Positions 8,879 to 32,547 of a DNA stretch of 32,795 nucleotides are shown one piece after another. Position numbers and translations under genes: made by a program. The DNA is from a virus. Below the pieces are notes generated by a model. It was given only the letters and a program-made list of their open reading frames with translations, was not told the origin of the DNA and did not search any database. Location of the stretch: positions 1-32,795 of IMG/VR virus record IMGVR_UViG_3300027714_000064; one strand, written 5' to 3'. Each line of letters begins with the position of its first letter. Position 1 is the first letter of the stretch.

Positions 8879-9795
8879 ATCATTTTCTCCTTAATCTTCA
8901 TTTCCATTAGTTGATAAGATGTTAAATCTTTACTATCTTGTATGATTGTATTAATCTGAGAGAATCCTAGATCACTAGGATCTTTCTCATCTAAATCAAT
9001 TAATGTAACTGACACGCCATTATTTATAAAATATTCACAGCTTTGCAGTGCTTTTGAACGAGCATCTTTATCTAATGCTATATTAATATTCTTGACGTTA
9101 TGTTCAACTACTGCTTTTTTTAATTTTTCTAAAACTATCTTACCGAATAAAGGAATAGCGTTACGCTTTACTGCTAGTGCATCAAACACTCCTTCAACTA
9201 CCGTTATTGGTTGACTCCAATTAATGTATAATTCGAACCCGATAATATCTTTTGAAACTTTAGGATTTTTATGCTTAAATGTAGCATCATGGTAATATGA
9301 TCTACCTGTAAAAAAGTTTAATGTACCATCCTTATCGTAACTCGGTATTATCACCATTTTACTGTATGGACCTGTTTCACAATACCCTATATTATACCTT
9401 AATATATCATCACGAGATATACCGCGATTACGTAGATAACTTAATGCATTCCAGAATTCTGGATTACTGCTCTCAACATTAAGAAAGGATTTAAACTCGA
9501 GTGGTAATGATACATCATCATATGTCTTTTTGGTATTTCTTGAAGGTACGGAATTTGAAAACTCTTGAAGCTTTTCAAAATGCGTCTGTGATGCTTTTAG
9601 CTTTTTAAATAAATGATATAAACTTCTACCCTTCATCCCACAAACCCAGCACTGCCACATCTGCGTGCGAAGATTCACTTGTAATTTTTTCTTTGAATGG
9701 TGACAAAACGAACAATGAAATGCTACCTCATCATTTTGCAATGCTCTACCTCTATTCAATAAAGACTCAAGAAGGATTTGTAGTTTTTTAAGCAT
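8875..9795 (-). CDS. DNA primase, CHC2 zinc finger plus TOPRIM
   Basis: A 306-residue DnaG-type primase that would make RNA primers for lagging-strand synthesis, like T4 gp61. A zinc finger lies near the N-terminus (C28-x2-C31, C49-x2-C52). The TOPRIM core follows, with the metal-binding glutamate in VVEGVFDAL (E201) and the DKD pair at 242-244. No helicase domain is fused, so a separate helicase must lie elsewhere. I start it at the ATG at 9795. The frame extends 11 codons further to a TTG, but that stretch (LLVLFFVYYY) is translated promoter/terminator DNA, and the ATG sits at the same place after CGTATATT as two other genes. It follows endonuclease I and overlaps the SbcD-SbcC gene, forming a replication/recombination cassette. 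Confidence 0.9.
   Translation of the reverse strand: MLKKLQILLESLLNRGRALQNDEVAFHCSFCHHSKKKLQVNLRTQMWQCWVCGMKGRSLYHLFKKLKASQTHFEKLQEFSNSVPSRNTKKTYDDVSLPLEFKSFLNVESSNPEFWNALSYLRNRGISRDDILRYNIGYCETGPYSKMVIIPSYDKDGTLNFFTGRSYYHDATFKHKNPKVSKDIIGFELYINWSQPITVVEGVFDALAVKRNAIPLFGKIVLEKLKKAVVEHNVKNINIALDKDARSKALQSCEYFINNGVSVTLIDLDEKDPSDLGFSQINTIIQDSKDLTSYQLMEMKIKEKMI
8887..8892 (-). promoter_or_regulatory. Ribosome binding site that supports a TTG start
   Basis: AAGGAG lies inside the end of the primase gene, eight bases before the TTG of the SbcD-SbcC fusion. It supports translational coupling and use of a TTG start. A nearer ATG lies in the primase frame and not in the fusion frame. Confidence 0.7.
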
Positions 9796-9800
9796 ATAAT

Positions 9801-9828
9801 AATATACGAAAAATAATACCAATAACAA
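9801..9828 (-). promoter_or_regulatory. CGTATATT promoter candidate before the primase
   Basis: Sense strand: TTGTTA (9828-9823), 16 bases, then TATATT (9806-9801) preceded by CG, with the ATG only five bases after TATATT. The spacing fits a bacterial -35/-10 pair, but transcription would begin at or just past the ATG, giving a leaderless message or a start from a later ATG. The same arrangement occurs at 30642 and 31186. Confidence 0.5.
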
Positions 9829-9836
9829 ACGTTATT
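9809..9836 (-). terminator. Hairpin plus T-run after endonuclease I
   Basis: Arms AATAAC and GTTATT around a GTTT loop (9836-9821) are followed by GGTATTA and five Ts. The TAA stop of endonuclease I lies in the first arm. The stem is short and AT-rich, so it is weak as an intrinsic terminator; its matching position in two other gaps is the main support. Confidence 0.45.
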
Positions 9837-10248
9837 TTAAGTTTTTTTCGTTATACCACTCTACTGGTATAGCTTTATCTGCCCATGCTATATCATTTTT
9901 AATACAGAAGTCTGCGTAGGTGGTTTTTGACCCTTTACGGATCTTACCTTTCGAGTTTTGAAATACTAATCTAATATCCAATTCGGGATGCTGTTTTTTA
10001 ATAAGTAAATGCTTTTTTCTATCTTCCAACACCCAGCGACCTTTTGTTTCTACCAGAATACCATTTGGTAATGTAAAATCTATAGTATATGTGTGAGATG
10101 TTTGCGGTTTTATATACGGAATTACAGTAGTTTCATATTGAAATTTAACCTTAGCTTCAGTAAGTTGCTCAGAAACAGTGTGTTCGAATCCACTCCTATA
10201 ACCATGCTTGATTGCATTTGCTCTTGCTTTTGATATTTTTCTTGCCAT
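9832..10248 (-). CDS. T7-type endonuclease I (Holliday junction resolvase)
   Basis: This 138-residue protein matches T7 gp3 closely along its length. Catalytic residues align as E22, D57, E67 and K69 (T7 E20, D55, E65, K67), in the contexts SGFEHTVSEQL, YTIDFTLPNG and VETKG. The segments DRKKHLLIKKQHPELDIR and FCIKNDIAWADK also resemble T7. The enzyme cuts branched DNA, resolving recombination intermediates before packaging and possibly degrading host DNA. T4-type phages usually use endonuclease VII (gp49) instead, so this gene sits oddly beside T4-type tail genes. It heads the cassette with the primase and SbcD-SbcC. No Shine-Dalgarno sequence is clear before its ATG. Confidence 0.95.
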   Translation of the reverse strand: MARKISKARANAIKHGYRSGFEHTVSEQLTEAKVKFQYETTVIPYIKPQTSHTYTIDFTLPNGILVETKGRWVLEDRKKHLLIKKQHPELDIRLVFQNSKGKIRKGSKTTYADFCIKNDIAWADKAIPVEWYNEKNLK

Positions 10249-30424: not shown

Positions 30425-30634
30425 TTAACCTTTTAAAATTTGCTTTAATTTATCTACTTGTGATGTTTTACCTTCAAAAGCCTGTTGAACACTCAATGCG
30501 TCATAACCTAATGCACATGCTAGCTGCTTACATACTCTTTTAAAATCATGTATGTCTATATTTTCATTAACATCTAGTTCAACCTTCTGTATTTCATTAG
30601 AATGAGTACCACGAGTGTATATTAGTTTATCCAT
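30425..30634 (-). CDS. Conserved small protein of unknown function
   Basis: A 69-residue protein (MDKLIYTRGTHSNEIQKV at the N-terminus, DFKRVCKQLACALGYDALSV in the middle). The central helix with a Cys-x-x-x-Cys-like spacing (C34, C39 region) is too small to call a metal site. It is preceded by a CGTATATT promoter unit and probably starts the transcript for ClpP, the HD protein and the sigma factor. Possible roles are an adaptor or an early regulator; none is proven. Confidence 0.65.
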   Translation of the reverse strand: MDKLIYTRGTHSNEIQKVELDVNENIDIHDFKRVCKQLACALGYDALSVQQAFEGKTSQVDKLKQILKG

Positions 30635-30641
30635 ATAGTAT

Positions 30642-30669
30642 AATATACGAAAAAAAATTAAATAAACAA
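30642..30669 (-). promoter_or_regulatory. CGTATATT promoter candidate before the 69-residue gene
   Basis: Sense strand: TTGTTT (30669-30664), 16 bases, then CG and TATATT (30647-30642), then seven bases to the ATG at 30634. It overlaps a hairpin and eight-T tract on its upstream side. This is the cleanest of the three copies. Confidence 0.55.
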
Positions 30670-30679
30670 ACTTATTTAA
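30650..30679 (-). terminator. Hairpin plus eight-T run after the Cys4 gene
   Basis: Arms TTAAATAA and TTATTTAA (30679-30672 and 30665-30658), loop of six, then eight Ts. The TAA stop of the Cys4 protein is inside the first arm. The stem has no G-C pairs, so intrinsic strength may be low. Confidence 0.5.
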
Positions 30680-31178
30680 CTTTTATTTTTCTAGTAAGTT
30701 TCCGGATTTGCACCTCCAAGGGCTTTCTATCTTTCTTAAATTTAGCTTTAGCTAATTTCTTCTTAAGAGTATATATCTTTGATGCATCATTTCTTCGTTG
30801 AGTTTCTCGTTCACGCTTAGTTAATCGTTTTTTATTACTAACCTTCTCAACTATAGTTACTGGTAATGTGCCTTCAAGAGCAGGTTGCTCTTTACCTTTA
30901 TGATAAACCTTACCGTCCTTATCTACAAACTCTGTCATCCATTGCCAGCCTTTTGGTCGACCTGTAGGGGCATACCTGGGAGTAAATTTAGGAGGCTCAG
31001 TAACTTTATTTACACATCTATGACAAAGGGTAGCAGTTGTATCTACATTAACCTTTACCCACTCTCCGCATAAGTTACCTTTCCACCATCTACCACCCTC
31101 AATGCTATTACGACATATCATGTATCGTTCACCACCGTCAGTGTAACTATTGTAAACAGTTTTTATTTTCTTTGCCAT
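30672..31178 (-). CDS. Small Cys4 protein with a basic tail
   Basis: A 168-residue protein, probably zinc-binding: C22, C37, C52 and C55 (CHRC) are spaced like a zinc ribbon. An RPKGW block follows (R74-W78), and the C-terminal half is strongly basic (KKRLTKRERETQRR; KKKLAKAKFKKDRK), suggesting nucleic acid binding. The family is unknown to me, but RPKGW proteins with this layout recur in marine phages. I start at the ATG at 31178, which follows CGTATATT like two other genes. The frame stays open back to a GTG at 31280, but that would lie within the membrane-protein gene and translate its terminator. Confidence 0.72.
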   Translation of the reverse strand: MAKKIKTVYNSYTDGGERYMICRNSIEGGRWWKGNLCGEWVKVNVDTTATLCHRCVNKVTEPPKFTPRYAPTGRPKGWQWMTEFVDKDGKVYHKGKEQPALEGTLPVTIVEKVSNKKRLTKRERETQRRNDASKIYTLKKKLAKAKFKKDRKPLEVQIRKLTRKIKVK

Positions 31179-31185
31179 ATAATTA

Positions 31186-31214
31186 AATATACGAAAAAAA
31201 AATAAGTTAACCAA
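31186..31214 (-). promoter_or_regulatory. CGTATATT promoter candidate before the Cys4 gene
   Basis: Sense strand: TTGGTT (31214-31209), 17 bases, then CG and TATATT (31191-31186), and seven bases to the ATG at 31178. The -35-like box sits in the loop of the adjacent hairpin. Confidence 0.5.
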
Positions 31215-31219
31215 CTTAT
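31194..31219 (-). terminator. Hairpin plus T-run after the membrane-protein gene
   Basis: Seven-base arms ATAAGTT and AACTTAT (31219-31213 and 31208-31202), a GGTT loop, then eight Ts. The TAA stop of the membrane protein lies in the first arm. Of the three matching units it has the tightest loop. Confidence 0.55.
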
Positions 31220-32547
31220 CCTTTATAAGGGTTCGGGTTATGTGGTTTGTTTGGATTGTGTTTAGGTCGTTTGATAACACGCTTTCTACGTTTATCGTTA
31301 GTACTTAATGATTTTTGCTTTGAATCACCATGGTATAGTGTGTGCTCGCTTGATTGCTCAGCAGCTGGAATATTTTTTTCAACTGGTAAGGGTATATCAG
31401 TCTCAGTAACAGAATTTTCTGGTAGTTGCAATTCTTCATCCTCCAGTATATCGATCAACGCATCTAATCCAATTTCAACCTTTTCCGGTTTAGATATATT
31501 CGTCTCAAGATCATCCATTACTAGATCCTTTCTCTCAACCTTAATACTACTAGATAAACTGTTCGGATTTAAACTTGAACTATGCACTTTAATATCCCAG
31601 TTATCTTGACTATACTCTTGATCTTTTAATCTTGCTTGATTATTAGCAACACGAGTTTTTAATTCACTTGATGGGTTCTCAATGTTCAAAGGTACTGGGT
31701 AGGGTGTGTTAAACTTTTTACCGACTGGTACAGACATAGTAACTTTAGGAGTTATTTGTGCAAATGCCATATTAGCTGCTACTACTAACGCTATAGCTAA
31801 AGGATCAAATACAAATATAATTAATAATAAGAACCAATTAACAACAACTCCCATATCCTTACCAGTTATTTCAGCTAAATATTTTAAAGGACCTAGCTCA
31901 CTCTCAGCTTCATTAGATATCTCTTTATCTAGCAATGCCATATCTGTTTTATTAATAGAATCCATTACAGCTTCCATCTTTAAATTTATAACATCTCTGT
32001 TATTAGTAGCTGTAGATAGTTCACCTTGAAGAGCTCTTCTTGCTGAAGATGATGATGTTGTAATTAACGTACCTGATTCCTTATCTATGTACTGCACTTG
32101 CGCTGGATTAGATAGAGCGACTCTTAGATCTGATATTGATTTAGATAATCCCTGCTTTTCTATCTTAAGATCCTCTTTCTGCTCCTCAAATCTAATCTGT
32201 TTTTGATTTAGAATCATAAGGGATTTGTCAAGTAGCTCTGATTGAGTAGCAGTGGATTGATATGCGCCTGATAAGAATCCATATATACCACCTGATGTTA
32301 TTAGTATTAACACAAGACATGCTATAGATAGATATGCTCGTAAACCTTTATTTATTGTGTCCCAATACTGGTATAGTAAAGATGCAACAACCAATTTTGC
32401 AAACTCTAATGAACCAGCCATAATCATAACTTGTAAGCTTGCTCCCGCAAACAACTTACTTAATCCATAAACAGAATAGAATGCAGCACTACCTGAAACG
32501 GCAAGTGCACTTAGCGTAATTATAATTGGAAATAAGTGTTTCTGCAT
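31216..32547 (-). CDS. Four-helix membrane protein with a cytoplasmic coiled coil
   Basis: A 443-residue inner-membrane protein. Three membrane helices lie at about residues 5-25, 33-58 and 70-95 (YLSIACLVLILITSGGIYGF). A long coiled coil follows (about 100-215; QIRFEEQKEDLKIEKQGLSK). A fourth helix lies near 236-262 (NWFLLLIIFVFDPLAIALVV). The remaining 180 residues are polar and probably disordered, ending basic (KRRKRVIKRPKHNPNKPHNP). The polar FEFAKLVVAS face of helix 2 and the ITSGG in helix 3 look functional. Proteins of this shape are common in marine phage genomes, but none has an assigned role; a link to host membrane remodelling, superinfection exclusion or lysis timing is possible. 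The ATG follows GAGGGG. Confidence 0.75.
   Translation of the reverse strand: MQKHLFPIIITLSALAVSGSAAFYSVYGLSKLFAGASLQVMIMAGSLEFAKLVVASLLYQYWDTINKGLRAYLSIACLVLILITSGGIYGFLSGAYQSTATQSELLDKSLMILNQKQIRFEEQKEDLKIEKQGLSKSISDLRVALSNPAQVQYIDKESGTLITTSSSSARRALQGELSTATNNRDVINLKMEAVMDSINKTDMALLDKEISNEAESELGPLKYLAEITGKDMGVVVNWFLLLIIFVFDPLAIALVVAANMAFAQITPKVTMSVPVGKKFNTPYPVPLNIENPSSELKTRVANNQARLKDQEYSQDNWDIKVHSSSLNPNSLSSSIKVERKDLVMDDLETNISKPEKVEIGLDALIDILEDEELQLPENSVTETDIPLPVEKNIPAAEQSSEHTLYHGDSKQKSLSTNDKRRKRVIKRPKHNPNKPHNPNPYKG

Follow-up and report, generated by a model that had tools for sequence, protein, structure and literature searches.

Terminators and promoters are usually regarded as distinct elements that lie side by side, and phage promoters in Bacteroidota are, to our knowledge, little described. 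The published Bacteroidota promoter combines TTTG at -33 with TAnnTTTG at -7, followed by 4-5 nt to the start site (PMC6847099; PMC9723704). Recycling, in which a bacterial RNA polymerase terminates and then reinitiates, has also been described (PMC11347151). In the open-licence literature, we found no description of a terminator fused to a promoter in Bacteroidota phages.

The window, the whole 32,795-nt stretch analysed here (IMG/VR record IMGVR_UViG_3300027714_000064), is a fragment of a tailed phage in which every large gene lies on the minus strand. No near-identical record was found among the phage records searched, and scans of the window returned zero Rfam matches and zero tRNAs. Its 11.4-32.8 kb portion matches, at 99.99% identity, an 80-kb IMG/VR contig that belongs to the same phage (G001, hereafter the contig); these 80 kb are the known extent of the genome. 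Three units on the minus strand, leading into ATGs at 9795, 30634 and 31178, each come straight after the stop codon of the preceding gene and share the layout TTG-N19/20-T5-CG-TATATT-N5/7-ATG, with 5, 7 and 7 nt between TATATT and ATG in copies 1, 2 and 3. The components recorded by an earlier sequence-only reading—a TAA within a hairpin's 5' arm, a T-run, CG, TATATT and an ATG—are present in all three gaps that it had singled out. The TAA falls within the 5' arm of a short inverted repeat in copy 1 (9834-9832 within 9836-9831), copy 2 (30674-30672 within 30682-30672) and copy 3 (31218-31216 within 31219-31213), and TTTTTCGTATATT occupies 9813-9801, 30654-30642 and 31198-31186 (minus strand). 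The features are as follows, with promoter elements and starts as predicted.

9832-10248, minus strand: T7-type endonuclease I gene, upstream of copy 1
9796..9836, minus strand: copy 1 promoter unit, between the endonuclease I and primase genes
9821..9836, minus strand: copy 1 inverted repeat AATAAC-GTTT-GTTATT, not abutting the T-run (GGTATTA intervenes)
9826..9828, minus strand: copy 1 -33 box TTG (within GTTTG), TATATT 19 nt downstream
9801..9813, minus strand: copy 1 TTTTTCG and -7 element TATATT (9806-9801)
9793..9795, minus strand: primase ATG, coinciding with the predicted start of transcription (leader ~0 nt; spacing rule of PMC6847099)
8875-9795, minus strand: DNA primase gene, downstream of copy 1
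30635..30682, minus strand: copy 2 promoter unit, before the 69-aa ORF and the head protease/baseplate/tail run
30658..30679, minus strand: copy 2 inverted repeat TTAAATAA-GTTTGT-TTATTTAA, then T8; -6.6 kcal/mol, core pairs all A-U
30667..30669, minus strand: copy 2 -33 box TTG, TATATT 19 nt downstream
30642..30657, minus strand: copy 2 T8-CG and -7 element TATATT (30647-30642)
30425-30634, minus strand: 69-aa ORF, directly downstream of copy 2
31216-32547, minus strand: ORF upstream of copy 3
31179..31219, minus strand: copy 3 promoter unit, between ORF 31216-32547 and ORF 30672-31178
31202..31219, minus strand: copy 3 inverted repeat ATAAGTT-GGTT-AACTTAT, then T-run; -6.9 kcal/mol, nearly all A-U
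31212..31214, minus strand: copy 3 -33 box TTG (TTGG), TATATT 20 nt downstream
31186..31202, minus strand: copy 3 T-run, CG and -7 element TATATT(TA) (31191-31186)
30672-31178, minus strand: ORF downstream of copy 3, encoding a 168-aa protein of unassigned function

The minus strand contains three instances of the 13-mer TTTTTCGTATATT, against none on the plus strand or in a backwards-read control, and the pattern TTG-N19/20-TATATT-N3/7-ATG is found three times in sense and never in antisense, with a shuffle mean of 0.0. Further copies exist beyond these three, in relatives as well as on the contig, where an iterated profile recovered 17 sites, all on the coding strand, against 0 in shuffled sequence at the same threshold. 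Their consensus is AGTTGG-N14-TTTTTC-K-TAT-M-TTTATAT. The pattern TTG-N19/20-TAHHTTTA likewise occurs 19 times in sense and once in antisense on the contig, compared with 1.7 in shuffles, an 11-fold excess over the latter. The contig sites include two sub-types: those with TATCTT, for which leaders are mostly predicted, and those with TATATT, for which a leader is often predicted to be absent. Between 34 and 49 kb of the contig, a promoter sub-type with the nearly fixed spacer AGTTGGTAGTCTGAGATA and TATCTT precedes many small ORFs; in the TATCTT sub-type, the spacer AGATA and the -7 TATCT are inverted repeats of one another.

Relatives of the window phage, gathered via primase and head protease, provided orthologue sets of 11-13 distinct sequences per copy. 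All three window sites were found in them, with TTG and TTTTCGTATATT constant and the spacer and hairpin arms variable; GTTTG at copy 1 is present in 13/13 distinct orthologues. The distance from TTG to the -7 element (N19, N19 and N20 in copies 1, 2 and 3) is maintained in the orthologues, and conservation is lower for the hairpins than for the two promoter boxes. Supported by the boxes, the wider family and its conservation, the earlier proposal of a promoter placed immediately behind one gene's stop to start the next gene holds up: judged by sequence, the three units are genuine promoters from a conserved compact family. Hairpin promoters of the N4 kind were considered and dropped, since variation falls in the hairpin whereas the -33 and -7 boxes stay constant.

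The nearest named phages by primase are the Flavobacterium phage vB_FspM_immuto (NC_055915; 42%) and Microcystis phage Mel-JY01 (40%). Type IX secretion is a Bacteroidota system, and the contig encodes a type IX secretion signal (CHU_C) protein and a PKD_6 domain, which points to a Bacteroidota host. Bacteroidota members usually lack Shine-Dalgarno (SD) motifs; SD-like motifs in 40-50% of the window phage's genes, versus 2% in immuto, suggest that this host is not a typical flavobacterium; on the contig, such a motif precedes 40% of genes. We infer that the host probably belongs to the Bacteroidota. In a section of the Mel-JY01 genome (PP395634.1, 142000-190001), TTG-N19/20-TAHHTTTG, a Bacteroidota-type promoter, occurs nine times in sense and zero times in antisense, with 1.3 in shuffles; the cyanobacterial host assignment of this phage may deserve a second look.

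Set against the promoters of the Bacteroidota primary sigma factor, sigma-ABfr, the units share TTG, a 19-20 nt spacer, TA-NN-TT, an AT-rich stretch 5' of the -7 element and a start predicted a few nucleotides downstream. In all three copies, a -33 TTG lies within the sigma-ABfr range of 19-21 nt upstream of the -7 element, and TATATT supplies TA at -12/-11 and TT at -8/-7. They differ in a fixed T5-C-G before the -7 element and in having A or T, not G, at -5, with T at -6 missing from copies 1 and 2; the T/G pair that F. johnsoniae promoters almost always carry at -6/-5 is thus absent, replaced by TATATTAT in copies 1 and 2 and TATATTTA in copy 3. Immuto, with its known Flavobacterium host, likewise favours TTTA (38 in sense versus 1 TTTG). 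The units would therefore work like the Bacteroidota primary-sigma family, although we do not claim strict membership. Our overall reading, which we consider likely, is that they are Bacteroidota-type primary-sigma promoters set between stop and ATG, producing leaderless mRNAs and carrying weak, facultative hairpins. The primary-sigma RNA polymerase of a Bacteroidota-type host would read each unit through the -33 TTG, the T-run-bearing spacer of 19-20 nt and the -7 TATATT, the whole promoter being squeezed into the few bases that separate one stop codon from the next ATG, with the T-run serving primarily as a component of the promoter spacer. The promoter family, its conservation and spacing, and the fused hairpins of relatives can be read directly from the sequences; host sigma factor recognition, leaderless initiation and termination are all three inferred from these patterns.

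An ordinary sigma-70 promoter of a non-Bacteroidota host, with a -35 TTGNNN and a -10 TATATT 16-17 nt apart, would also fit this geometry; TATATT matches five of the six positions of TATAAT, the frequency of SD-like motifs is in keeping with such a host, and the endonuclease I is close to proteins of proteobacterial phages. However, TTG-N19/20-TATAAT is found 0 times in sense on the 80-kb contig, against 2.6 in shuffles, where TAHHTTTA shows its marked excess, and variation in the second hexamer runs towards TATCTT, which is further from the sigma-70 consensus. A simple scan recovers sigma-70 promoters at or below the shuffle level, with only copy 1 reaching 9/12, and both the encoded type IX secretion signal and the Flavobacterium phage among the closest relatives argue against this explanation, which we regard as very improbable.

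A promoter class peculiar to the phage, recognised by a phage factor or by a polymerase that the phage has modified, with T5C and TATMTTTA as extra determinants and with CGTATATT and CTTATCTT marking two temporal classes, would account for the departures from the host consensus at -6/-5 and for the mostly leadered and often leaderless sub-types on the contig. It is also consistent with the extended T-run-C motif being frequent in viral contigs (at least 119 stretches) and rare across 20 cellular genomes, a rarity that also weighs against the primary-sigma reading. Against it, the core geometry equals the published host geometry, and the families listed for 66 contig proteins (25 of 31 Pfam, 25 of 55 PHROG), from the 80 kb known, include neither a sigma factor nor an RNA polymerase; we think such a class quite unlikely.

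Under the primary-sigma reading, the published spacing of 4-5 nt between the -7 element and the start (PMC6847099) places the predicted start on the ATG, so that mRNAs from the three units should be leaderless, with a predicted leader of 0-1 nt. This rule puts the starts of copies 2 and 3, and of two more contig sites, either at the ATG or 1 nt ahead of it; for copy 1, the predicted start lands inside the start codon. Five contig promoters have predicted leaders of 0-4 nt; those of the remaining contig promoters are mostly 20-50 nt or more. An ATG at the predicted start sets the units apart from sigma-ABfr hosts, given that only 5.5% of F. psychrophilum mRNAs are leaderless. The predicted leaderless transcripts would encode the primase (copy 1), the 69-aa protein together with structural genes (copy 2) and the 168-aa protein (copy 3).

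Behind copy 1, the primase gene is followed by an SbcC-like gene. Behind copy 2, the 69-aa ORF is followed by a head maturation protease gene and then by a long co-directional baseplate/tail run of ~20 kb, whose genes match the structural region of immuto and Mel-JY01, including baseplate assembly and wedge proteins; no further match to the promoter profile occurs between copy 2 and copy 1. The suggestion that all three downstream genes are non-structural and form an early or middle class is consequently not supported, given copy 2, which heads ~20 kb of protease, baseplate and tail genes. As a separate observation, the T7-type endonuclease I (9832-10248) shares up to 58% identity with gp3-like proteins of T7-like phages; it sits in a larger, myovirus-like gene order and was probably acquired from a podovirus.

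The hairpin component fared less well than the boxes: the inverted repeats that had been noted are present, but that of copy 1, a 6-bp repeat, stands apart from the T-run, and the stems are A-U-dominated and weak. We scored hairpins of -6 kcal/mol or below ending at the T-run, and found them in 0/13 sequences for copy 1 and in 2/12 each for copies 2 and 3, window phage counted. The possibility that all three window units work as terminator and promoter in one, with a transcript ending in the T-run and the next starting at the ATG, draws on several of these features: the hairpins of copies 2 and 3 lead into 8-9 consecutive T and share their phase with the strong hairpins found in immuto and other viruses, and only 1-2% of block shuffles reach -6 kcal/mol in the test for these two copies. 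Moreover, the immuto primase promoter, AAGAAAGGCTTG-TTTATT-CAAGCCTTTTTT followed by CGTATCTT, bears a hairpin of -14.2 kcal/mol in the same place as copy 1, and in Mel-JY01 a terminator-like hairpin and then TTG-N20-TATATTTG precede the primase gene. Opposing this, abutting hairpins are missing from copy 1 and from most orthologues of copies 2 and 3, the stems contain nearly no G-C pairs, a terminator scan needing three such pairs found none at the three minus-strand sites, and the window phage's 15 other promoters show no hairpin excess. We judge a working terminator in all three units to be unlikely. Covariation across the window hairpins was similarly unremarkable: pairs are kept in 57/72, 59/121 and 67/77 cells with a few double changes, but a block-shuffle mean p of 0.26-0.39 indicates no clear constraint on pairing. 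Rare in orthologues and in no excess at other promoters, the hairpin appears to be facultative in the window phage and not the conserved part of the unit. Within the favoured primary-sigma reading, these weak hairpins overlap the -33 box and, at copies 2 and 3, may partially terminate the incoming transcript.

Relatives present a stronger form of the same arrangement. Immuto carries 38 promoter sites of the same architecture. In 11 of them (~29%), the primase promoter included, a hairpin with a folding energy of -9.6 to -14.5 kcal/mol ends at the T-run region, compared with a background of 3.7% of bins at the -6 cut-off (p = 9e-8). Hairpin frequency in this phage peaks sharply at the T-run start, and the -33 TTG lies inside the hairpin 5' arm in 9 of the 11 hairpin promoters. 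Among 38 non-redundant viral sites found by motif alone, 26% have a folding p of ~0.01 or lower; a family of eight sites retains its hairpin in 92.6% of cells and has two pairs in which both sides have changed, a covariation only mildly above shuffles. As far as folding predictions can tell, relatives often carry a terminator-like hairpin nested in the promoter, where a polymerase arriving from the preceding gene would halt over the promoter of the next one. The earlier idea of a single element closing one transcript and opening the next thus finds backing at the level of the class (11/38 in immuto, about a quarter of the 38 viral sites), whereas in the window the hairpins are weak and mostly missing from orthologues. 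Tentatively, one might envisage in this aquatic phage group a ~45-bp module made of a stop codon, an intrinsic terminator, a promoter and, in leaderless cases, a start codon, with the -33 box in the terminator's 5' arm and the terminator T-tract as promoter spacer. A polymerase released on the next promoter could then restart, and the window copies would be minimal or decaying versions; we hold this as a possibility short of probable. At ~67.9-73.9 kb of immuto (NC_055915), a run of small genes has a promoter for each, followed by the nearly fixed leader TTTAGGTATCAATAATTAAAACA.

The significance of this sequence-defined family (17 sites in 80 kb; 38 in a cultured phage) is that 29% of the promoters in the cultured phage have a terminator-like hairpin nested in them, mostly with the -33 box inside its arm. 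With this family, transcription units of uncultured aquatic phages could readily be mapped, and terminator-to-promoter polymerase recycling and leaderless translation could be studied in a natural setting.

In relation to known systems, copies 2 and 3 resemble intrinsic (rho-independent) terminators in having a post-stop hairpin followed by a T-run. They and copy 1 differ from such terminators in their poorly conserved, A-U-dominated stems of 6-11 bp, apart from the T-run in copy 1, and neither a stable G-C-containing stem nor conservation of the hairpin in orthologues was found. The likeness to recycling is that a terminator beside a promoter lets the same polymerase restart (PMC11347151); the two lie up to ~1 kb apart in that system, whereas in immuto, compared by sequence alone, they share the same bases. 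Also close are the immuto promoters themselves, which differ in mostly having a leader of 20-40 nt without SD and in their strong nested hairpins, against weak ones in the window, and which share with the window family the motif AGTTG...TTTTC-K-TATMTTTA, many copies between small genes and one copy before the primase.
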